Positions 5,292 to 20,481 of a stretch of 21,518 nt of DNA are shown here, in pieces. The number at the start of each line of letters is the position of its first letter. Position 1 is the first letter of the stretch. A model generated the notes under the pieces. It saw only the letters and a list, made by a program, of their open reading frames with translations, was not told the origin of the DNA and did no database searches. The position numbers were made by a program, and so were the translations under genes. The DNA comes from a virus: positions 1 to 21,518 of the IMG/VR virus record IMGVR_UViG_3300014839_000045, one strand, 5' to 3'.

Positions 5292-5528
5292 ATGGCAAAC
5301 AACTTGCTTGAATCTCTAGAGAAACTTCGGAATAGATTAAATAACTCAGGTCTTCAACGCACAGAAGGCGTACGCACTGCGATGGATCTGGGTAAAGATT
5401 GTTACTTGTATAAGAAGTCCCTTGATATCTTTCTTCGGGATGACTTTGACCCAATCAAAAAGTTATTTCTTGAAGTGCTGGAACAGTATCGAATAGTTGA
5501 TCCTGTTTCTTTTAAAGGCGGGACCTAA
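5292..5528 (+). CDS. Unknown 78-residue protein, first gene of the late operon
   Basis: The product is helical (MANNLLESLEKLRNRL at the start, LFLEVLEQYRIVDP near the end) with no membrane segment. The frame opens 12 codons earlier at 5256, but that extension (DFSLSAGYTPL) is encoded by the TCGGCGGG element region and looks unlike coding sequence. Neither start has a clear SD. The stop and the next ATG share a base (TAATG), so it is coupled to the Cys-cluster gene. No family recognised; size and place before the packaging genes would suit a small head or packaging accessory protein, which is inference. Confidence 0.6.
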   Translation: MANNLLESLEKLRNRLNNSGLQRTEGVRTAMDLGKDCYLYKKSLDIFLRDDFDPIKKLFLEVLEQYRIVDPVSFKGGT

Positions 5529-6334
5529 TGGCAGATAAAGAAAAATCAGTAGCTCTGACTCGTACTGATACTAATAAAGTAACTAGAGCTGAATACTTTA
5601 AATTTATTGATCACAATTTGGATGATTACTCTCAGATTACTTTCACTCTAGAAGAAGCCAAGCGATATACGATGGTGATGAAGAAGCTCTCTACTGGAGC
5701 TACTGCCATGATTCCTCTCACTTGTCTTGGACCTGCTTGTCCGTTGAGACAAGGATGTCCATTAGCAGAAATAGGAAAGTATCCAATCGCCAAACAATGC
5801 CTCGTTGAAGTGAATTTACTTAATACTTGGGTAGTTCAGTATATGAACGAGTACGAAGTAGATCCTGAGAACTTTACCGAAATTGGTTATTGTAACGAGT
5901 TAGCCGAAATAGAAGTTATGATGCGGCGGCTTAATATCTCTCTAGCTAAACCAGCTAATGCCGAATTGATCATAGACCAAGCAGTAGGCGTTGCTAATAA
6001 TGGAGAGCCTATTATACAGAAACAGTTATCTCCTTTTATGGAACAACGAGAGAAACTACTCAATAGAAAGAGTAAGATTATCAAGTTAATGGTTGGAGAT
6101 AGACAAGAGAAGTATAAGAAAGAAGCAGCTCTCAAGACTAAAGAAGATAAAGATCCATCTTCCAAGATGTCAGATATCCGTCGGAAGATCGAAAAGCTTC
6201 AGCGAGATCTTGATATCAATCCAAAGGCTACCGTAGATTCAATCTCTCCTCTTCAAGAAGGCGGAATATCTACTCCAGTAGAAAAGAAAGTAATTCTTAC
6301 ACCTGATGCTATACTAGATAGCGATGAAGAATAA
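5528..6334 (+). CDS. Cys-cluster protein, possibly terminase-small-like
   Basis: The 268-residue protein has a distinctive four-Cys cluster, CLGPACPLRQGCPL plus AKQC (Cys66, Cys71, Cys77, Cys91), fit for zinc or an Fe-S centre. A conserved-looking helical domain follows (about 92-150). A long charged region (about 165-230), probably coiled coil, leads into a flexible acidic tail. The layout of binding domain, coiled coil and acidic tail, and its place ahead of the terminase operon, would fit a small terminase or DNA-recognition subunit. No sequence match proves this. The ribosome site is weak (AAAGGCGGGACCTAATG). It overlaps the next gene by 11 bases. Confidence 0.6.
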   Translation: MADKEKSVALTRTDTNKVTRAEYFKFIDHNLDDYSQITFTLEEAKRYTMVMKKLSTGATAMIPLTCLGPACPLRQGCPLAEIGKYPIAKQCLVEVNLLNTWVVQYMNEYEVDPENFTEIGYCNELAEIEVMMRRLNISLAKPANAELIIDQAVGVANNGEPIIQKQLSPFMEQREKLLNRKSKIIKLMVGDRQEKYKKEAALKTKEDKDPSSKMSDIRRKIEKLQRDLDINPKATVDSISPLQEGGISTPVEKKVILTPDAILDSDEE

Positions 6335-9300
6335 TCCTCTCTTTTTCAATATCGGCGGTGGAAAATTATCTTTTGCTCAAGGAGTAGAAGAAAGAGGACG
6401 AACTCTACCTACTAACAAAGCAGGACTAGAGAACTTTCTCTCTGTCCTTGAAAAACAGAAAGAAATAGCCGGATGGAATATCGGAAGTATTTCTTCTGAA
6501 ACGGGCGGTATACCTTCTTTACTAGCCGAAGCAAAGAAACACGGACTACATCAAAGATATCAATCAGTATTATCTAATATTACTACTAGAGATATTGGTA
6601 GAGAATATGCTCTCAATATAGCTAAAGCAGTAGAACCTCACCGTAACTTACTAGATGAGGATCTATGGAGACAAGCAGAAAAATACGCTTCAGTAGGTAG
6701 AGGATTTGAATCAGTTCCTGGTCAACTCCCTGCTTCTCAAGCACTAGCTGCTGGTCAATATCAATTCTCTGGTTGGAAACAAGAAGACGTATTCCGCTGG
6801 AAATATGGTAAACAACCAAAGAACTCTCTGGAAGCTCTCAGAACACTCGCTACGCAGCCTGGAAGGGCACTAGCAGGTCCAGAATTCGCTAGTGAATGGA
6901 ATAAGACCGCCCTTCAAAATAAAACGATAGCAAGGGCAATGACAGGCGCTAACCCTTGGGAGAACAAGAAAACCTTCTATCAAGATCTGATTAGTAAAGC
7001 TCAGAAGTGGGGTATTTCAGAAGATGTAATCACTTCAGAAATAACTAGTCAGGGTGGGAATCTTGATAGTATCAAACAAGGTCTAGGTAAAGTCAGTAAA
7101 GTAGAAAAGGGATTTTTATCGGCGGGCAGTGCCCCAACGTCCAGAAGACTTACGAATCTAGGGGCACAACTAGTAAAAGAACATCCATGGTCAGTAGGAA
7201 TAGGAATAGGATTAGCTTCACTAGTAGCTATCAATAAAATCTCTTCTAAAGATGATGACTATAACACCATAGAAGGATTGCCTCACGGTGGTCAAGCCGA
7301 GATTATGCGTAAGGCTATGACTCACTTCGGATCTGGTTATCAGGGAGATAAGAAGGAAAGAAGTCACTCTCTACTCCCTGTTATCGCTGGAGCAGGTATC
7401 GGAGTAGGGCTTGGGTGGGGAGCAGTTGAGAGATTATGGGGATACTCGGGAATTGCTTCTGATCTTTCTAAATATCCCAGATTAGCAGCGATGAGGGCTA
7501 TAGCTTCTAAACACGAAATGACTATAGTTTCTCCCATGCTAGCTAAACACATTAAGAGTAAAGGGCCTATTGGCAAATTAGCTTATGCCGGAATAGATGT
7601 TCAAGAAAATTGGGGAAAGCATGGCAACTCTAAGAGACTTATTTATAACTACGATACACTCCCAGGAAGCAAACATTGGATAGACAAGATACCAGAACAT
7701 AATGTCAATTTTGGTAACTGGAATATTGGAGTAGATAAGTTACGAACTCAAGAATATCTTTTCTTTAAAGGACAAGGAAGACATTTACCTGAAACTTTTT
7801 CAGCAGGGGAGTTGTTTGAGTCAACTGCTGCTTGGCAAGAAGCAGGATTAGCGTCATACAAGAGACAAGAGACATTTATGCCTTCAGTCGCTAGAGGAAA
7901 GCTTTTTCGGAATCCTCGCGCAAAAAGTATAGCGAAAGAATGGGGTGGTTACGGGAATCTAATTATTAAAGATACTGGAGCCGCTCTTTCAGAAGGTGTT
8001 TGGATGGGTCCCAGTAAAGTCCCAGCAGCAGATCTCGAAAATATGCTTCTTCATCCTGCGGATTATATAGTCCAAAGGAAAATACCTTTAGCTGCCGAAT
8101 TTCGAACTATCTCGGTTGGAGGTAAGCAAGTTTACGCAGCGCATAGATTCGGGAATTCTCTTACAAAGAAGGTTCTCGGGAAATTAGAAAAACATTTTCC
8201 TGATTTGGCCGGCAATATCAAGAAACACCATTTACATGAAAACGTTATCCCCGTATCAGATCCCGAAGTGTTAAAAGGATTAACTTCTTTTACAGAGAAT
8301 CTGGCGAGTAAATTACCTAAAGGTCTAGATATCGCTGCCTACGATATAGGAATGACTGCCGAGAAAGAATTTAAACTAATAGAAATACAGAGAAGTTTCG
8401 GCACTATAAGAAATCCTCTTGTATCTAAACGTATTGTCGAGAATATTACAGGTAAAAAGATTGGTCATTCTAAGGCTGCGATAATAGGATTAGGTATACT
8501 CGGAGCAATAACGGGAGCGCTCTTTTCTGGCAAAGATGATAGTTACAATACTATCGAAGGACTAGAGCATAAAGGAGTAGCAGGGGCAACTCGTAAAACT
8601 AATACTGATTTCGGATCAGGTTTCCGTTATCTCGCTCAAGAAATTCTAGAACAAAGCTTAAATCAGTATCTTCATTATTCTAACAAACCTTTCTTCTCTA
8701 TCTCTAGCAAAGACGACAACTACAATACCATCGAAGGTCTTCGCCATGGATGGTACGGGAAGCAACGAGTAAATAATACCGACTTCGGTTCAGGCTGGGA
8801 TGCTCTTCGCGGACTTACTAGAGCCGGCGAAATATTCGAAGAGATGCTTGAAGGTAAAGAATTCAAAGCCGCTCTCTCTGGTGCGAAATCAGTTAAGTCT
8901 ATCGGTAATGGAAGATTCGGTGAAGTATTCCAGATGAAAAGTTCTTTCCGAGGAAAAGAATTTCAATTCGCTAGAAAAGTCGGAGATATAGGAGAACACG
9001 AAGTAGAAGCGCAAAGAGCATTTCAGGACTGGTTCTCTCCTACAGTGTATGGCAGCAAAGAGAATATGATGGATATGGAACTTATCCACGGAGAGACTCT
9101 GAAGAGTAATATGGCTCATAATACCTACGGATTTGAACCTCATGAAAGAGCCACTTCAGAGCTTCTAGATTTCATGAAGACTCAAGGGTGGGAACACGGA
9201 GACACTCATCTCGGGAATAGGATGCTTGTACCTAAGAATCATTACGCGATTATTGATTTTGGTAAAGCACATCGAATATCTGGGTTTGATGATGTTCATA

Positions 9301-9881
9301 ATACTATAGAAGGATTGAGACATACTGGACTAGCGGGATTATCTAGAAAAGGGAATACAGATTTCGGATCTGGTTTACAGCGTTTAATGTCCTCAATTAA
9401 ATCAGTTTTCGGCGGGGTAGAAAAGAAAGGATGGACTCTTGGAGTTGACGAACTCAAGAGTATGTCCAATACCGAATTCTACAGTTTCTTAGCAAAGAAA
9501 GGTTCTATTACTAGAGAACAGCTTAAAGATACTTTACAAGGTTTCGCTGAAAGAAGAGGGTCAGTCGTTGGTAGACCGATTTCTATTACGGAGATAGAAG
9601 CGGGAGAAATAGCAGCCGGCCGAATTGAAAAACCTTTTATAAAGGAATACAGACTAAAACAAGATATAGAACGGGCTAAACTAGAAAGAGTTAATGGAAG
9701 ACCTGAAGATAAGACTAATCCTTTTGGAGTAGGACCTGTGATGATACCACCGATTAAGAAAGACATTACTCAGTCAGTCTCGGTATCCGTAGACAAGGTA
9801 GTGTGGAATAAGAATCACCTGAGAGCTATGAAAGATGCGGCTAAAGCTGCGCATAGAGCCGGTCGTAGACACGCAGGCTAG
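6324..9881 (+). CDS. Giant multidomain protein with ATP-grasp-like and kinase-like domains and four NTIEGL/FGSG repeats
   Basis: The 1185-residue protein is modular. Residues 1-290 are unrecognised and helical. An ATP-grasp-like domain spans about 400-700: Lys549 in NLIIKD, a Gly-rich loop (552-561), VQRKIPLAAEFR (583-594, with Glu592 and Arg594), Asp674 in AAYDIG and Glu687 in KLIEIQ as likely ATP and metal ligands. A protein-kinase-like domain spans about 855-985: P-loop GNGRFGEV (861-868), Lys885, Glu893 or Glu895, catalytic HGDTHLGN (958-965) and DFG (978-980). Four ~31-residue repeats (NTIEGL ... FGSG) start near 307, 735, 794 and 986, next to the enzyme domains. Hydrophobic Gly-rich segments lie at 291-304, 350-366 and 718-734. 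The C-terminus is basic. The start lacks an SD and depends on the 11-base overlap with the upstream gene. Substrates are unknown. It may be a virion-borne polyvalent protein delivered with the DNA. Confidence 0.8.
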   Translation: MKNNPLFFNIGGGKLSFAQGVEERGRTLPTNKAGLENFLSVLEKQKEIAGWNIGSISSETGGIPSLLAEAKKHGLHQRYQSVLSNITTRDIGREYALNIAKAVEPHRNLLDEDLWRQAEKYASVGRGFESVPGQLPASQALAAGQYQFSGWKQEDVFRWKYGKQPKNSLEALRTLATQPGRALAGPEFASEWNKTALQNKTIARAMTGANPWENKKTFYQDLISKAQKWGISEDVITSEITSQGGNLDSIKQGLGKVSKVEKGFLSAGSAPTSRRLTNLGAQLVKEHPWSVGIGIGLASLVAINKISSKDDDYNTIEGLPHGGQAEIMRKAMTHFGSGYQGDKKERSHSLLPVIAGAGIGVGLGWGAVERLWGYSGIASDLSKYPRLAAMRAIASKHEMTIVSPMLAKHIKSKGPIGKLAYAGIDVQENWGKHGNSKRLIYNYDTLPGSKHWIDKIPEHNVNFGNWNIGVDKLRTQEYLFFKGQGRHLPETFSAGELFESTAAWQEAGLASYKRQETFMPSVARGKLFRNPRAKSIAKEWGGYGNLIIKDTGAALSEGVWMGPSKVPAADLENMLLHPADYIVQRKIPLAAEFRTISVGGKQVYAAHRFGNSLTKKVLGKLEKHFPDLAGNIKKHHLHENVIPVSDPEVLKGLTSFTENLASKLPKGLDIAAYDIGMTAEKEFKLIEIQRSFGTIRNPLVSKRIVENITGKKIGHSKAAIIGLGILGAITGALFSGKDDSYNTIEGLEHKGVAGATRKTNTDFGSGFRYLAQEILEQSLNQYLHYSNKPFFSISSKDDNYNTIEGLRHGWYGKQRVNNTDFGSGWDALRGLTRAGEIFEEMLEGKEFKAALSGAKSVKSIGNGRFGEVFQMKSSFRGKEFQFARKVGDIGEHEVEAQRAFQDWFSPTVYGSKENMMDMELIHGETLKSNMAHNTYGFEPHERATSELLDFMKTQGWEHGDTHLGNRMLVPKNHYAIIDFGKAHRISGFDDVHNTIEGLRHTGLAGLSRKGNTDFGSGLQRLMSSIKSVFGGVEKKGWTLGVDELKSMSNTEFYSFLAKKGSITREQLKDTLQGFAERRGSVVGRPISITEIEAGEIAAGRIEKPFIKEYRLKQDIERAKLERVNGRPEDKTNPFGVGPVMIPPIKKDITQSVSVSVDKVVWNKNHLRAMKDAAKAAHRAGRRHAG
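7242..7337 (+). repeat. NTIEGL/FGSG repeat, copy 1
   Basis: Codes for residues 307-338 of the giant protein: SSKDDDYNTIEGLPHGG, then 10 variable residues and THFGSG. Lies just before the ATP-grasp part and after a hydrophobic Gly-rich segment. Confidence 0.85.
8526..8621 (+). repeat. NTIEGL/FGSG repeat, copy 2
   Basis: Codes for residues 735-766: SGKDDSYNTIEGLEHKG, then a short link, RK and NTDFGSG. Follows a hydrophobic helix (718-734) at the end of the ATP-grasp part. Confidence 0.85.
8703..8795 (+). repeat. NTIEGL/FGSG repeat, copy 3
   Basis: Codes for residues 794-824: SSKDDNYNTIEGLRHG, then NNTDFGSGW. One residue shorter in the middle than copies 1 and 2. Stands immediately before the kinase-like domain. 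Confidence 0.85.
9279..9374 (+). repeat. NTIEGL/FGSG repeat, copy 4
   Basis: Codes for residues 986-1017: SGFDDVHNTIEGLRHTG, then RKGNTDFGSG. Begins six residues after the kinase DFG, so copies 3 and 4 bracket the kinase-like domain. Confidence 0.85.
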
Positions 9882-9916: not shown

Positions 9917-10555
9917 ATGAGTTTTATAATAGATACCCTTCTTGGAGCAGGAAAAAGAGTCGGACTTAGTGCCGGTAAAAGCGCTATTGGTGGAACTTTC
10001 CGTAGAGCTGCTCTTGGAGCGGCAATTGGTGGCGGATATGAAGCGATTACCAGCGATTCTCAGAATACCGGAAGTTACTTATCGGATATTGCTCGTGGTG
10101 CTTTAATCGGCGGGACTATTGGTGCTGCTAGTAGACTGGTTACTCCTGCTCTAGTCAGAGGAAAGTTTAAAGGTCCCGGTATACTTTCTCTTGCTAGAAA
10201 AGCAGGATATAAACCCACTTTAAAAAAGTTTGCGAAAAAAGGATATCAAGTAAGTAAATTTGGTATTAAAGGCGGGATGAATCTTGCTCTCTTCGCTGCT
10301 GAACATCCAATAATAACAGTAGCAGGAGCGACTCTTGGAGTCTATGCTCTTTTTGGTAATAAAGCTCCCTACTCTTCTCCTAGTAGCGATGTAAATCTTA
10401 AAGCTTCATATAATCAAGAAGCTAGAGCATTAGACAGGATGGAAACGGGTATTGCTCCTCAAGGCGGATTATCTACAGGTATCGCTCTAAGACAGAATAG
10501 ATTACAACAGAGCACGATGGGAATGGTTCAGGGAATGTGGCAAAGTCGCCACTAA
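9917..10555 (+). CDS. Glycine-zipper hydrophobic protein, first of three
   Basis: The 212-residue protein starts with Gly/Ala-rich amphipathic segments (LLGAGKRVGLSAGKSAIGG, about 8-26; ALGAAIGGG, 32-40; GALIGGTIGAASRL, 61-74). A basic region follows (about 80-115), then a hydrophobic helix (PIITVAGATLGVYALFG, about 130-146) and a polar tail rich in Gln and Met. Such zippers pack closely in membranes and occur in phage internal or ejection proteins that form channels. That role is inferred from composition and from the late-operon position. AGAGGA precedes the start. It may work with the giant protein, which shares Gly-rich hydrophobic segments. Confidence 0.7.
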   Translation: MSFIIDTLLGAGKRVGLSAGKSAIGGTFRRAALGAAIGGGYEAITSDSQNTGSYLSDIARGALIGGTIGAASRLVTPALVRGKFKGPGILSLARKAGYKPTLKKFAKKGYQVSKFGIKGGMNLALFAAEHPIITVAGATLGVYALFGNKAPYSSPSSDVNLKASYNQEARALDRMETGIAPQGGLSTGIALRQNRLQQSTMGMVQGMWQSRH

Positions 10556-10564
10556 GGACAATAA

Positions 10565-11332
10565 ATGGCATTTGAGAACGTAAATTGGGCACATAATCAA
10601 GCAAAAAGTGCTTATCAGTTTGGAAATTCTTGGTCCCAACGATTTGGGAAAACTGGTATAGGTAGAGCTACCCAGCAAGGCATAATGGAAACCCTTGGCT
10701 GGAATTATCGAAAAGATAAAATTGGAGGCGGATACACTTCTCAAGGTTTTATGGGCCTTGGAGAAAGAGAAGTATCAGAAGGTGTATTCGAGAAAACTGC
10801 TTTTAGCAAAGCATATGAAACTGAAAAATGGCTTCAAGGTGGAGGAGTTCGTGGAGGAGCAAGAGCCTTAAGACAGACTCTTCCCGCTTTCGCTCGTCAA
10901 GCAGGAGCTAGGGGGATAGCAAAGGGTGCTTGGGGAGTTATCAAACATGGCGGATTTCTTAATGCCGGCTTTACTGCCTGGAATGCTATCGAAGGTTATC
11001 GAGAAGACGGAATAGTAGGTGCTGCTAAGAGTGTAGCAATCGGTGGAGCAATTCAGATAGGTATGGATTACGCTATGTCGACTCTTGCCCTTGGTGCTGC
11101 TTTTGACGTTGCTGCTCCTCTTGCTGCTATTGGGTATGGAGCATATAGAGTAGGCAAAGCTTCAATTGCTAGAGGTAAGAGATATCGTAATCTTGAAATG
11201 GGCACTCCATTTGTTGATACTTTCGGTACAGCAGCTACAATAAGACAAAGAAGCTTACAGGCTATACAGAACTCGCATATTGGAGGAAGGATGGCTCTCG
11301 GAAACGAAGGAGCCTTGATGCACTACAGGTAA
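10565..11332 (+). CDS. Gly/Ala-rich protein with hydrophobic C-terminal half
   Basis: The 255-residue protein has a soluble, Gly/Trp/Gln-rich first half (about 1-100) and a second half rich in Gly and Ala with hydrophobic stretches (GAAKSVAIGGAIQIGM and LALGAAFDVAAPLAAIGYGAY, about 152-199). The style matches both neighbours. No enzyme motif or signal peptide is visible. AAGGA lies upstream of the ATG, ten bases after the previous stop. Probable virion or membrane-active late protein; family not recognised. Confidence 0.7.
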   Translation: MAFENVNWAHNQAKSAYQFGNSWSQRFGKTGIGRATQQGIMETLGWNYRKDKIGGGYTSQGFMGLGEREVSEGVFEKTAFSKAYETEKWLQGGGVRGGARALRQTLPAFARQAGARGIAKGAWGVIKHGGFLNAGFTAWNAIEGYREDGIVGAAKSVAIGGAIQIGMDYAMSTLALGAAFDVAAPLAAIGYGAYRVGKASIARGKRYRNLEMGTPFVDTFGTAATIRQRSLQAIQNSHIGGRMALGNEGALMHYR

Positions 11333-11346
11333 TGGAGTAAATCGTC

Positions 11347-11730
11347 ATGATGTATCCGGCTAGATCGTTTCTACAAAGAGCAGCAGGAGCTATCGGAAAT
11401 GTTTATACTTCCGCTACTCATACGGCTACGGGTGGTTATGGACGAACTGCCGCTGGAGCACTTTGGGGTGCTGCGGTCGGTGGAGTGTATGGCGCAATGT
11501 CGGATAATACTTCTATTTTGGGCGGGGCAATGAAGGGAGCAAGTATTGGTGCCGTTGGTGCTCGATATGGAGCATACGGAATATCTGGAGCCTTAGGAGC
11601 AAAAGCAGCAGGAAGAGGAGCACGTATTAGAGGTTTTGGCCATGGTATCGCTAATCAGATACATAATGACTATAAAGGTGCTAGAATGATGGCTAATAAA
11701 GCATATACCAAAATACGAGGTATATTCTAA
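11347..11730 (+). CDS. Small glycine-zipper protein
   Basis: The 127-residue product is almost entirely Gly/Ala-rich. It has zipper runs such as TAAGALWGAAVGGVYGAMS (about 34-52) and GGAMKGASIGAVGARYG (about 58-74) and a basic C-terminus (AAGRGARIRGFG). The runs resemble those at the start of the 212-residue protein, so the two may be paralogous segments. GGAG lies upstream and a second ATG follows the first directly. Likely membrane or channel component, by composition only. Confidence 0.65.
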   Translation: MMYPARSFLQRAAGAIGNVYTSATHTATGGYGRTAAGALWGAAVGGVYGAMSDNTSILGGAMKGASIGAVGARYGAYGISGALGAKAAGRGARIRGFGHGIANQIHNDYKGARMMANKAYTKIRGIF

Positions 11731-11740
11731 AGGATAACTA

Positions 11741-14700
11741 GTGGATCTCAATCTCTGTTCTGGTGATTGTCTTAATTGCGTTAAAGCCTACAAGAAGAAA
11801 CATTCCGCCTCAAAAGGCGAAGGATGGAAGATTTCTTGTAAAGGTATTCCCAAAGATTATCTTTCAGAAGCACTACAAGCCGGCCTTTCAGAAGAAACAA
11901 CTGATGCGATGCTCACCATCGTCGATCCTGTTCGTTGGGCGGCGGAAAATCTAGACTGGCACTGTATTGATCCAGATAGTGAAATATGGAAACGTAAAAA
12001 TCCAGAAGAATATTATTCTTGGATAGCAGATCATCCTGGAGAAGATATTTCAGGTCACTCTCGATATCATCGCCCATATCAAGCAACAATGTTACTATGT
12101 AGCGCAAAACGAAAAGTATTTCGGATAGGAAGACAGTGTATAGAAGAGAATGAGTTCGTTTATACGCCTAAAGGACTTATCAGAGTTAAAGATATTAAAG
12201 AAAATGATACTATCTTAGGTGGTCAAGTAACAGATCTCTACTCATTCGAAGACATCATTTACAAAATTACATTTCAAAATGGGATTACTTTAAAAGTAAA
12301 TAAAGAACATCCTTTTTTTGTAAAAGGAAAAGGTTGGATTAAACTCAAAGATCTAGAATTAAAAGATCAAGTAGAATTTTTACCTTCAGAAACTCTTTTA
12401 GAGGAGAATGGAGATATATCTCCAGATCAGGCGAAATTACTAGGTTATATTTTATCCGATGGATATTTTGCCGATAAGCAATCAGTCAAATTTACAAATA
12501 ACAATATCTATTATTTAAGTGAAGTAGAACGATTAGCGACTCAGTTATTTCCTACATTAAATCCCCATAGATTACCAAAAGGTAACGGATTTGACACTTA
12601 CTTAATTACGAAGTGTGGAACTAATCTACCTAATCCTCTGGCAATTTATCTAAAAGAAGTAGGTGTATTCCATAAAGATACGTTTGGTCAAATATTAACC
12701 GCTAAAAAAGAAAGTATAGAAGCTTTTATCTCTACATATTTTAATGGAGATGGTTATCTTTGGCATTACAAAAGACCTGAAAGAAAAAACGGGTATCGAA
12801 GTGAAATCGGATTTGCTATTGGAATTAGCGAAAAAAAGGCAAAAGAATTTCAATACTTGTTATGGAAATTAGGAATTGGTTCAATAGTCAAAAAAGAATG
12901 GATGTTAAAATCAACTTGTCCTTTTTATAGAGTTTTAGTTTCTCGGAAAGAAGACCAACTTAAACTATTAGAGTTTCTTGATCCTTCAAAATATCCAGAA
13001 AAATTTATTTCTCATAGAGAAATTCTTAATAAAATCGGGAATAAGAGGAATAGCAAACAAGATAAAAATTTTAGTACAATTACTTCAATTAAAAAAGTTG
13101 GAACAGGCATAGTTTATGGTTGGGAAACGACAAGTCACGAGATAATTAGTTATTGTGGCATGAGAACGCATAATTGTGGAAAAAGTGAGAGTATCTGTGT
13201 ATCGATTCTCTTTAATATGTTTACTAAACCTGGCAAAGCAGAAGATCAGGGATTTAACGTAATCCTTATTACTCCTTATCAGACTCAAATCGACTTAATA
13301 TTCAAGAGACTTAATGAGTTACTAGAAGGGAATCCTGATTTACATAATTCAATCAAAAGAGCAGTAAAAGCTCCTAATTATACTTTGACTCTTCATAACG
13401 GTTCAGAGATCAAAGGTTTTACGGCTGGCACGAAGTCAGGAAATAACGCAGGAGCCGTCCGTGGACAACATGGCGATATGCTTATTTTCGACGAGGCGGA
13501 TTTATTGTGTGCGTCAGATATAGATGCTGCTCTTTCAATTGTAACTAACCAACCTAACGCTACTATTTGGATGAGTTCAACTCCAACTGGTAAACGTGAA
13601 AAATTCTTTCATAATTGTTTTTCTAAGGCGTATAAAGAATTTCACTATCCTTCTCAGGCGAATCCTATGTGGAATAGCGAACTTGAAGCTACCTTTAAAG
13701 AAGGATTAACTGCTTTAGGATACAAGCATGAGATTCTTGCGGACTTTGGCGAGCAAGAAGAAGGTGTATTTCAGAACTCTTACGTCCAAGCAGCAAAAGG
13801 TAAATTTGGATACAGAAGCCTTCCTTGGAAGGAAAATTGGATCTATACGATGGGTGTAGACTGGAACGATGTAAAGAATGGAACAACTATAGCTATTACT
13901 GGATATGATCCAGTAGCTAATCACTTTTATATAGTAGATAAAGCAATAGTATCAAAGGAAGGTTGGAATCAATCCGCCGCCTGTGAAAAAATTCGAGATA
14001 TGAATAGATTCTGGAGACCTACTGCTATTTACCTAGATAGAGGATTTGGTGGTTATCAATGGGAAGTCCTTAAGAAAGAAGGATTCGATGCTCTTTCTGA
14101 TCCGAAGAGAGGACCCAATCATCCAGATTCAGCTTTACGTAATGTTAAGCAATATGACTTTGGATCAAAAGTAGAAATTCACGATCTGTTTACTAAGCAA
14201 CCTATTCAAAAGGCGGCTAAACCTTTTCTAGTAGAAAATGCTGTCCGCCGATTTGAAACAAGAAGTATTAGTTTTCCTGAATCAGATACTTCTCTTGAAG
14301 CTCAACTCTCAGGATACGTAATAGATCACATATCTATTAACGGTAATCCGACTTATAAAGCCAATGAAGAGACAGTAGGAGATCACTTACTAGATGCCGT
14401 AATGCTTTCATTAATAGCTTTTACTCTCACAAAGACGCCTTTCGGCAAACCGACTATCGATATGAGTATTGCTTTTGCCGGCAAATTTGGACAAAAAATA
14501 GACGTAGATCTTCAAGACGGTGGAACGGTTTATAAATCTGATAAAAAGGTTAATCCCAATGAGGATCACAAACCTTCATTGACTAGAACCGAGGGACTTC
14601 AGGGAAATAATCGCATTATTGCCTCAAGTGAGAAGCAAATGCCAGGTAATCATTTGAATAATGATCTAAATTCAGTTAAACTATGGTCCTACCCTGGATG

Positions 14701-14797
14701 GGAAAAAGATGCCAAAAGACCTCAGGCTCGACCTTTTTCTCAATGGGCGGGAAGTAAATTAAATCATTCTTCTAAACCAAGAAGAAAGAATATTTAG
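11741..14797 (+). CDS. terL: Terminase large subunit, interrupted by an intein
   Basis: This is the ATP-driven DNA-packaging motor and headful/cos nuclease. The 1018-residue precursor would give a 672-residue terminase after splicing. The N-terminus has a Cys cluster (Cys6, Cys10, Cys13, Cys33) not usual for the family. Walker A is rebuilt only after splicing: IGRQ (129-132) joins CGKS (479-482). Walker B is DMLIFDEAD (579-587), followed by the coupling motif SSTPTG (612-617). The RNase-H-like nuclease acidic residues are Asp707 (GVDWND), Asp766 (YLDRG) and Asp881 or Asp885 (GDHLLDA). The C-terminal ~100 residues are polar and basic. It uses GTG as start, with AAAGGA six bases upstream overlapping the previous stop. 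Confidence 0.95.
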   Translation: MDLNLCSGDCLNCVKAYKKKHSASKGEGWKISCKGIPKDYLSEALQAGLSEETTDAMLTIVDPVRWAAENLDWHCIDPDSEIWKRKNPEEYYSWIADHPGEDISGHSRYHRPYQATMLLCSAKRKVFRIGRQCIEENEFVYTPKGLIRVKDIKENDTILGGQVTDLYSFEDIIYKITFQNGITLKVNKEHPFFVKGKGWIKLKDLELKDQVEFLPSETLLEENGDISPDQAKLLGYILSDGYFADKQSVKFTNNNIYYLSEVERLATQLFPTLNPHRLPKGNGFDTYLITKCGTNLPNPLAIYLKEVGVFHKDTFGQILTAKKESIEAFISTYFNGDGYLWHYKRPERKNGYRSEIGFAIGISEKKAKEFQYLLWKLGIGSIVKKEWMLKSTCPFYRVLVSRKEDQLKLLEFLDPSKYPEKFISHREILNKIGNKRNSKQDKNFSTITSIKKVGTGIVYGWETTSHEIISYCGMRTHNCGKSESICVSILFNMFTKPGKAEDQGFNVILITPYQTQIDLIFKRLNELLEGNPDLHNSIKRAVKAPNYTLTLHNGSEIKGFTAGTKSGNNAGAVRGQHGDMLIFDEADLLCASDIDAALSIVTNQPNATIWMSSTPTGKREKFFHNCFSKAYKEFHYPSQANPMWNSELEATFKEGLTALGYKHEILADFGEQEEGVFQNSYVQAAKGKFGYRSLPWKENWIYTMGVDWNDVKNGTTIAITGYDPVANHFYIVDKAIVSKEGWNQSAACEKIRDMNRFWRPTAIYLDRGFGGYQWEVLKKEGFDALSDPKRGPNHPDSALRNVKQYDFGSKVEIHDLFTKQPIQKAAKPFLVENAVRRFETRSISFPESDTSLEAQLSGYVIDHISINGNPTYKANEETVGDHLLDAVMLSLIAFTLTKTPFGKPTIDMSIAFAGKFGQKIDVDLQDGGTVYKSDKKVNPNEDHKPSLTRTEGLQGNNRIIASSEKQMPGNHLNNDLNSVKLWSYPGWEKDAKRPQARPFSQWAGSKLNHSSKPRRKNI
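12137..13174 (+). mobile_element. LAGLIDADG intein in the terminase Walker A motif
   Basis: The insert is 346 residues (terminase residues 133-478) in frame. It begins with Cys133 (CIEENEFVYTPKG, block A). Block B has NKEHPFF (His190). Two LAGLIDADG homing-endonuclease motifs follow: LLGYILSDGYF (233-243, Asp240) and FISTYFNGDGYL (329-340, Asp337). Block F contains VYGWETTSHEI (His465). The end is MRTHN (His477, Asn478), followed by Cys479 as the +1 residue. All splicing residues and both endonuclease acids are present, so splicing and homing activity both look intact. The stretch is visibly more A/T-rich than the terminase around it, which suits recent transfer. Confidence 0.93.
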
Positions 14798-17763: not shown

Positions 17764-20481
17764 TTGAAAACTTTTTCTGACGATGTGCAGGTATTTCGTG
17801 GCAATCAACCATTGCGCACCGAAGAAGTCAAAGATGTCATTCCTGATATCGGGTTTATCCCGCCTGGAAATAAAAGACCACCTAATGTTCCTCGAATAAT
17901 TTCTCCTGCTCTTAACTATGCTACTTCTAAAACTATCGGTCGTGGCGCATTTATGCCCGCTGAATACGACCTCTCAGAAGTGGGTCGTGTCGAAGATACC
18001 GAAAGTTACGTAAGGCAATCATTCAGTAAGAAATTAGCTCTTATGTTTAAAGAGGGATATACCTTTATTGGTAAGAATCCTAAAACTATCAGATATATCA
18101 AGACTCGTTTCGCTCAAATTGCCAGAGCTACTCAATTACCTACTCTAGAGTTTATGCGATTAATTGGTAGTTCTCTAGTCAAGAAATCTAACGCTTTTAT
18201 TGTAAAAGTTAGAGACGAAGATGCTTCAGGTGGAAGAATTCGTAAAGATCCTAATACAGGGGATGATATCCCGCCGATTGCTGGATATTTTTCAATGCCG
18301 GCTGAAACGGTAGAGTTCTCAGCTTCAGATAATATCCTTATTATGTATCGTCAGAGAACACCTATTGGTCAGATGCGTCAATTCTTGCCAGAAGATGTAG
18401 TTCACTTCTACTTTGACCGAAAAGACGGATTCTTTTACGGAACGCCTACTATTATTCCAGTTCTAGACGATATTCGTGCTCTTCGCAAGATTGAAGAAAA
18501 TATAGAATTACTGGTATATCAATATCTCTTTCCTCTTTATCAATTCCAGGTAGGAACTACCGAGATTCCTGCTGGTATCGACGAACACGGAAATCGAGAA
18601 GTCGATGTAATGCGTAGAGAGATACAGTTTATGCCTTCAGAAGGTGCGATTGTAACTACTGAACGTCATAAAGTTACTTCTCTTGGGGCGGAAGGGAGAG
18701 CCCTTAAAGCTGACGGTTATCTAGAACATTTTAAAAAGCGGGTAATAGCTGGCCTTGGACTTTCTTCAGTAGATCTTGGTGATGCCGATTCGAGTAATCG
18801 ATCTACTGCTGACAATATGTCACGTAACCTTGTTGATTCAGTTAAAGACTTTCAGCAAGTATTCGAGTATTTTTTCAATGACAATATCGTTAACGAACTT
18901 CTTCTAGAAAGCACTTTTGGTCCAGAAGTCCTAGATGAAGAGAATATCGTCAGGATGAAGTTCAAAGAAATTGATATTGATACTCAAATCAAGAAAGAAT
19001 GCCATTATGCCGATCAATTCAATAAGAACCTTATTAATTGGGAAGAAGGTAGAATGGCTATTGGACTAGAGCCAATTCAGCTTCCTTCTCTTGAAGAGAT
19101 TGCTTCAGACGAAGACTTATCTCAGAAATATCCAGAATGGTATCACACTTTCTTCAAGTTGTTTAAAGAGCCAGAATTACTGATTATGGCTACGAAAGAA
19201 CCTTACTCTCCTCTTGCTATGGCAAATACTCGCAATCCTTCTACTGAACTCCGAAAAGGCGACGTAGATGAATCATTTGAGAAGCAAAAAGAGATATTTA
19301 AGCAACAAGCTCAGATGAAGATGCAGCAAAGAGGCGGAAAAGCGAAAGATGCCTTCTTGTCAGAACGTTTCGCAGAAGTTCAGCAAGGTATCGCTTCGTA
19401 TGTATCTATTAAACAAGTTCTCGATCACGGTTGGGTTAATCAACTTATTAGAACTTCAATAACTCCAACTATCGACTATATGATAGCTGCCCAGATGGCG
19501 TCATTTAAACAAGGATACAGTGAGCATGGGGATGCTTATTCTACTAAATTCTTGGATGCTTGTAGATTAGCAAGAATCCATTTTAGAGAACGCGCGGAAA
19601 ATTATATTAATAAACTGATTGAAGATATTAACGGAACACTTAAACGTAATATCTCGGAAGACTTACCAGTCGAAGAAATCGTATCCAGAACTCAAATTGT
19701 TTTTGATACCCTTAAATTCCGCGCTAATTTTATTGAAGACGTAGAAATGCGAAAAGCTCAAGAAGCAGGTAGTTCTTTAGCTCTTAGAGATCAAGGCAAT
19801 AGATACCTAGAAGTTACTAAAACTGAAAAATGCGACGAAGGATGTAAGACTTGTAATAGCAAGAGGGGATCTCTTCTTGATACAGCCAATATGTCCTTAG
19901 AAGACGTTCCTCCATATCATAGTGGCTGTACTTGCGGATTAAAAATTTCTGAAGGCGGGGAACTTATTACTAATGCTACTCCTGCTACACCAGATGATCC
20001 GAGAGAATTTAAGCGGACTTATGGGTTTGAAACAACTCCACAATGCCTAGATGCCGAAGCTACTAAAATCCGCCAAAAAAATCCAGATTGGAGTGCTTCT
20101 CAAGTAACAGCAGAAGCTGCTCGTATTTGTAAGAGCAAGAGAATGGAAAATGCGCCAGAAAAGAGAGACGTAGGAACAGGTGAGACTAAAGATGCTCAGA
20201 CTCCTCCTCCTCCAGGTCCTGGCGGTCCACAACCTCTAGATCCATCGAATCCTCCGTGGCCTCCTGATACAGAAGTAGATAAGAAAGTAGGCGAAGCTCA
20301 GAGAGCAATGCCTGCTAATATACAATGTCCGAAATGCGGATATAATGCAGAGAGAAAGAAGAATTCAGCGGACAAGTATCACTGCGATCGTTGTAATGTA
20401 ACTTTCAGGAGAGCTTGGACTAGAAGATATCCAGGTGATCCTAGTGAAGAACAAATGGCAACATCGAATCCATACGTTTAG
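17764..20481 (+). CDS. Portal protein with MuF-like and zinc-ribbon C-terminal extensions
   Basis: This is the ring at the capsid vertex through which DNA passes. At 905 residues it is roughly twice a usual portal. Residues 1 to about 480 are portal-like: a PAEYDL N-terminal region, a wing around 120-230 (LPEDVVHFYFDRKDGFFYGTP), the long helix DDIRALRKIEENIELLVYQYLFPLYQ (235-260) and GLGLSSVDLGDADSSNRSTAD (330-350). A second unit (about 525-730) has a MuF/minor-head-like end: Cys690, Cys694, Cys697 and PPYHSGCTC (716-724). A Pro-rich linker (814-833) leads to a zinc ribbon (Cys855, Cys858, Cys874, Cys877). The start is TTG with AGGAG six bases upstream; no ATG is near. Confidence 0.88.
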   Translation: MKTFSDDVQVFRGNQPLRTEEVKDVIPDIGFIPPGNKRPPNVPRIISPALNYATSKTIGRGAFMPAEYDLSEVGRVEDTESYVRQSFSKKLALMFKEGYTFIGKNPKTIRYIKTRFAQIARATQLPTLEFMRLIGSSLVKKSNAFIVKVRDEDASGGRIRKDPNTGDDIPPIAGYFSMPAETVEFSASDNILIMYRQRTPIGQMRQFLPEDVVHFYFDRKDGFFYGTPTIIPVLDDIRALRKIEENIELLVYQYLFPLYQFQVGTTEIPAGIDEHGNREVDVMRREIQFMPSEGAIVTTERHKVTSLGAEGRALKADGYLEHFKKRVIAGLGLSSVDLGDADSSNRSTADNMSRNLVDSVKDFQQVFEYFFNDNIVNELLLESTFGPEVLDEENIVRMKFKEIDIDTQIKKECHYADQFNKNLINWEEGRMAIGLEPIQLPSLEEIASDEDLSQKYPEWYHTFFKLFKEPELLIMATKEPYSPLAMANTRNPSTELRKGDVDESFEKQKEIFKQQAQMKMQQRGGKAKDAFLSERFAEVQQGIASYVSIKQVLDHGWVNQLIRTSITPTIDYMIAAQMASFKQGYSEHGDAYSTKFLDACRLARIHFRERAENYINKLIEDINGTLKRNISEDLPVEEIVSRTQIVFDTLKFRANFIEDVEMRKAQEAGSSLALRDQGNRYLEVTKTEKCDEGCKTCNSKRGSLLDTANMSLEDVPPYHSGCTCGLKISEGGELITNATPATPDDPREFKRTYGFETTPQCLDAEATKIRQKNPDWSASQVTAEAARICKSKRMENAPEKRDVGTGETKDAQTPPPPGPGGPQPLDPSNPPWPPDTEVDKKVGEAQRAMPANIQCPKCGYNAERKKNSADKYHCDRCNVTFRRAWTRRYPGDPSEEQMATSNPYV

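Follow-up and report, generated by a model that had tools for sequence, protein, structure and literature searches.

A repeat-punctuated modular protein in the late operon of an uncultured phage, with a separator that may serve as a delivery tag

Little is known, to our knowledge, about how several enzymes come to be loaded by a tailed phage for immediate delivery, and a gene that strings unrelated enzymatic domains on one chain beside the packaging genes raises the question of what such a protein does and in which cell. The gene was found at 6324–9881 (+ strand) in the window, namely the 21.5-kb stretch of DNA that is a whole IMG/VR record; its frame of 1185 amino acids is open throughout, and stop codons abound on the opposite strand. 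An earlier note described the protein as an ATP-grasp-like domain joined to a kinase-like domain and proposed it as a new member of the polyvalent proteins of phages and plasmids, which carry several effector domains per chain and are proposed to be delivered with DNA (Iyer et al. 2017, PMC5512222). From the open reading frame and domain mapping, we describe here a modular protein that is punctuated by a repeat.

The position among packaging genes was correctly recognized in that note, with the repeat gene lying upstream of the genes for the terminase large subunit (TerL) and the portal. The operon runs rightward in the order g5256, g5528, the repeat gene, three small Gly/Ala-rich genes (9917–10555, 10565–11332, and 11347–11730, +), TerL (11741–14797, +), three further genes, a portal fused to a head-morphogenesis-like region (17764–20481, +), and the prohead protease/scaffold, of which the N-terminal part is present and cut by the contig end (20492–21517, +). 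g5528 (5528–6334, +), which overlaps the start of the repeat gene by 11 nt, is a conserved upstream neighbour by comparison of the contigs and perhaps the small terminase subunit; in its product, for which Pfam gave no match, a Cys-rich stretch, CLGPACPLRQGCPLAE, leads into a helical part resembling small terminase subunits. TerL has a LAGLIDADG intein inside (Intein_splicing and LAGLIDADG_3 matches within aa 170–464), and ME3_9, the homologue of g5528 in phage ME3, also matches Intein_splicing. The small, Gly/Ala-rich product of 10565–11332, adjacent to the slot of the repeat gene, has a second common C-terminal pattern, roughly RQ.A...I....L..R..LG.E, which also occurs at the ends of L002 4828–5289, L004 7495–9135, KLEB27-3 gp009, and ME3_12; this product may be a further protein of the head interior that carries a tag of its own. 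In the leftward block, the gene at 1535–1957 (−) is predicted to encode a kinase-like P-loop protein with the motif GVSGSGKST, which is perhaps a polynucleotide kinase. Rfam and tRNA scans of the window gave none, and promoter and terminator scans gave matches no more than chance.

The portal of the window is a distant relative (30–38% identity) of the portals of Bacillus phage KLEB27-3, Moorella phage MTATph1, and Acinetobacter phage ME3, the genomes of which are 177–235 kb. Tail-sheath genes, present in these three phages and most related contigs, point to contractile tails. Also, we noticed that the portals of L055 (127–3381) and L061 (280–3375) have more than 1000 residues with an alignment break of ~300 residues relative to other portals, which is perhaps an insertion or intein.

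The ATP-grasp-like domain was mapped by alignment, AF2, and Foldseek to aa 516–733 (7869–8522, +) and is R2K-like. Its motif set is present, namely the strand-2 Lys (K549), ExR (E592-F-R594), D674, and E687-x-Q689, and K549, E592/R594, D674, and E687 are invariant in the four available sequences, i.e., the window protein and three relatives (L017, L071, and L102); the four residues that the earlier note had named (Lys549, Glu592, Asp674, and Glu687) were exact. The AF2 model is poor (mean pLDDT 44, about 65–77 in the core), but the order of strands and helices in the core is as in ATP-grasps, and a Foldseek search with the core matched the peptide ligases LysX/ArgX and MdnC, and also Ddl, at a probability of 1.00 as well as viral CDC123-like proteins, supporting an ATP-grasp fold. 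By sequence, the window domain gave no match to Pfam R2K_2, and the ATP-grasp profile gave no meaningful match in the PDB; the relative in L071 matched R2K_2 with E = 0.0023 and 18.3 bits, below the cut-off of 26.2 bits. The domain is like the R2K-clade ATP-grasps (CDC123/R2K.2, PMC4431377) in having the strand-2 Lys, ExR, Asp, and acidic Mg-binding motif, but it differs from that clade in ExQ for ExN (E687-I-Q689, with Gln for Asn in all four sequences), in Glu557 for the second Lys/Arg in the loop past the strand-2 Lys (Lys, Lys, and Arg in the three relatives), and in the context of a repeat-punctuated chain.

The kinase is a minimal protein kinase at aa 833–985 (8820–9278, +), again by alignment, AF2, and Foldseek, and the full catalytic set claimed for it was found exactly: G861-G863-G866, K885, H958-G-D960...N965, and D978-F-G980. 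The Gly loop, K885, HxD..N, and DFG positions are kept across 14 kinase sequences, and AF2 gave a good model (pLDDT near 90 in the core), with RIO2, PKA, and DAPK as structural matches; Pfam gave weak matches only (ABC1/APH/Pkinase). Separate structure prediction and structure search thus recovered both folds, that of the ATP-grasp on a poor model. The kinase ends just after DFG, the next repeat starting at aa 986, five residues past D978-F-G980, and most of the C-lobe is therefore missing; the kinase nonetheless looks active. The pairing with an ATP-grasp, regarded previously as unusual, is real but not a one-off: all four ATP-grasp-bearing proteins (window included) also carry a kinase, which is suggestive only because about half of all members have one.

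The N-terminal ~170 residues, a region without assignment in the earlier note, were found to be a degenerate DEDD (DnaQ/RNase T-like) exonuclease (6324–6821, +). DxE reads NIG, the Asp of GFDIP is lost, and the AH..D motif is lost; the catalytic acids are kept in five relatives (L007, L009, L021, L030, and L111). Judging from these residues, the exonuclease module of the window phage is dead.

Between these modules lies a repeat that had escaped the earlier note. The window protein has four copies of 33–34 residues (consensus SGKDDxYNTIEGLxHGGxAxxxRKxxTDFGSG) at domain junctions: aa 307–340 (7242–7343, +), 735–768 (8526–8627, +), 794–826 (8703–8801, +), and 986–1018 (9279–9377, +). Gly-rich hydrophobic segments stand ahead of the first (7182–7241, +) and the second copy (8475–8525, +), the latter overlapping the end of the ATP-grasp module; in the family, such a stretch precedes 31% of the repeats vs 3% of random positions. 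At the first pass, no whole-protein homologues were hit in phages or viral contigs, and a portal-based scan of viral contigs gave no match; relatives surfaced only with the repeat as a query, which hit 48 viral loci in a first scan and more in a second. After removal of duplicates, 49 distinct IMG/VR phage proteins carry the repeat in 108 copies (1–6 per protein), and in each of the 16 records tested (68–204 kb) it is confined to a single protein. No credible match was obtained in 84,980 bacterial and archaeal genomes (pattern scan), in cultured phages, or in plasmids. Neither the motif nor separators in polyvalent proteins were found in the open-access literature, which is weak evidence that the repeat is undescribed so far. 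A copy in L026 (5675–10819, aa 1203–1244) gave a sub-threshold Pfam match to Ntox37 (E = 0.0011), most likely by chance.

Placing the repeats at random would make 21.9 of the 108 copies overlap a mapped kinase, SNase, DEDD, or ATP-grasp domain; no such overlap was observed. This count of zero is partly favoured by construction, the seeds of the domain HMMs having been taken from the stretches between repeats; Pfam's own SNase and kinase coordinates agree with it, but the sub-threshold Ntox37 match in L026 does overlap a repeat. For identical residues in copies within one protein, the codons differ in 53% of cases vs 60% for random same-residue codons, and this near-random scatter indicates selection on the protein and not a recent copy of DNA. 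A repeat for recombination at the DNA level was considered and rejected, the silent sites being close to saturation. Beside the well-modelled kinase, AF2 confidence is low in the repeats, as would also be expected of a linear motif, although the thinness of the alignment, and not disorder, may be the cause.

The slot of the gene is the same in nearly all contigs, with a homologue of g5528 upstream and those of g10565, TerL, g14807, g15251, g15964, and the portal downstream, and its content varies. Over 52 proteins, we counted 27 copies of the kinase, 22 of SNase, 10 of DEDD, and 4 of ATP-grasp; further modules between repeats are Cas4/RecE-like nucleases and one weak DnaJ match. One relative of 2411 residues (L033, 7838–15070) contains an intein-like stretch. 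Pairwise distances of the kinases, for which only the best-scoring one was used where a protein has two, were not correlated with those of backbone genes (r 0.06–0.12, p > 0.1), whereas backbone genes correlated with each other at r 0.66–0.77, and SNase and DEDD with the backbone at r 0.42–0.77; exchange of the kinase between phages is hence pointed to. That repeats move with kinases as units found no support, the similarity of pre-kinase repeats being 0.607 vs 0.587 for the others.

The chain is closed by a conserved basic C-terminal tag, ...AAKAAHRAGRRHAG (9795–9878, +), with a G/N..H core; other members have GQGHTKM, SPIGHHRM, and NNRTRHYIM. By a pattern composed after inspecting the sequences, the tag was found in 40 of 49 repeat proteins vs 11 of 150 neighbouring proteins. 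Similar basic C-termini were noticed in two proteins of cultured phages, ME3_11 (529 aa, Acinetobacter phage vB_AbaM_ME3), which ends NNRNKHYMY, and gp006 (257 aa, Bacillus phage vB_BauM_KLEB27-3), which ends ERIGHHKMGNSKFQ. Both occupy the slot between the g5528 homologue and TerL and have a Gly-rich hydrophobic segment, and ME3_11 is alike also in its DEDD-type N-terminus; unlike the window protein, they are short and have no repeats and no kinase or ATP-grasp. From the likeness in slot and tail, with no significant alignment, we read them as short, repeat-less relatives.

From the computed features, i.e., the modules and their residues, the repeats and their positions, the fixed slot, the module turnover, and the C-terminal tag, we infer with a probability of roughly 50% a polyvalent-type effector that uses the separator as a docking tag, is carried in the virion, and is passed to the host with the DNA; packaging, ejection, docking, and substrates are all part of this inference. 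The protein would be a modular effector of a lineage of large contractile-tailed phages, made late alongside the head and packaging proteins. It would probably be packaged in the head and enter the host with the DNA, as suggested by the late-operon position, the hydrophobic segments, and the C-terminal tag. In this chain of modules, each set off by the linear separator of ~34 residues and closed by the basic tag, the separator may be bound by a head or ejection component. Any module between two copies could then be carried and threaded, and the gene would be a cassette locus for incoming and outgoing kinases, nucleases, and ATP-grasps. Once in the host, the kinase may phosphorylate host (or virion) proteins, and the ATP-grasp may attach an amino acid or peptide to a target by ligation. 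Against virion carriage, it should be noted that SNase, DEDD, and Cas4-like modules would have to be kept inactive inside a head filled with DNA. More tentatively, we propose that the repeat is a transferable packaging/ejection tag by which a head gene has turned into a cassette array, with the enzymes flanked by it being loaded and delivered and kinases being exchanged independently of the backbone.

The alternative that survives best, doubtful as it is, regards the repeats as processing sites, at each of which a polyprotein would be cut, perhaps by the prohead protease, with separate enzymes being released in the head. The repeats do lie at domain junctions, and TIE/GL (slash, site of cleavage) is reminiscent of the ...XE/ sites in T4-like and phiKZ-like phages, with Glu being the commonest residue at its position. 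Furthermore, a prohead protease was found in 14 of 14 related phages with the portal region read, and that of the giant phage SPN3US is known to cut ejected proteins after AXE (PMC10052503). Nonetheless, about 22% of the copies have another residue (D, Q, R, M, K, L, and others) in place of Glu, the most conserved part of the repeat, R....T.FGSG, is far from it, and a protease site alone would need fewer than 34 residues. Moreover, NTIEGL-like sites are missing from the major capsid proteins of the same phages, the N-terminal arms of which mostly read [VIL]x[DE]A[LI], and hardly occur in the other head proteins read; the true cleavage sites of these phages may differ.

A role of the protein late in packaging or head maturation in the producing cell (DNA trimming, assembly regulation), in place of that of an ejected effector, seems to us rather improbable. 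Such a role would be consistent with the gene directly upstream of TerL and portal and with the DNA nucleases in many members, but the module content varies freely while the packaging genes stay conserved, a kinase and a peptide ligase are ill-suited to DNA maturation, and the DEDD nuclease of the window is dead. Least of all do we expect the repeats to be inert flexible linkers left by duplication without a function of their own, which would account for their low AF2 confidence and their placement between domains, because they are too conserved (at least 90% at 16 of 35 positions among 25 copies selected from unrelated contigs) between modules often unrelated to each other, and their silent sites are near saturation; inert linkers drift.

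Returning to the effector with a docking tag, a portable element that marks module junctions in a fixed slot would offer a way to study how cargo is loaded and ejected. Effector modules in uncultured phages might be predicted by position alone, with a delivery tag to test, and the R2K-like ligase and the minimal kinase are placed where modification of host proteins at entry can be probed.

In comparison with known systems, the part of the polyvalent proposal that stands is the multi-enzyme architecture and the late position. As in the polyvalent proteins of PMC5512222, a phage-borne chain of unrelated enzymes with nucleases and cassette-like variation is present, two or more disparate activities are predicted on one chain, and the kinase has lost its C-terminal subdomain with the active-site residues kept. 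Unlike those proteins, the kinase has no His-to-Asp insert (H958-G-D960), the slot beside TerL is fixed, and no Pfam match to the hallmark domains (MPTase, ArdC-N, DarA, LPD, and RadC) was obtained in 41 family members, window included. The family is further set apart by its single 34-residue separator, no description of which was found on searching that paper. The E proteins of SPN3US (PMC10052503) are also large and packaged in the head, and belong to big myophages having a prohead protease, with packaging in our case being suggested by the neighbouring genes; they differ in their cleavage after AXE, and they are not presented there as chains of enzymes punctuated by a separator. If the present reading is true, the transferable tag would be a phage counterpart of modular secreted effector systems.
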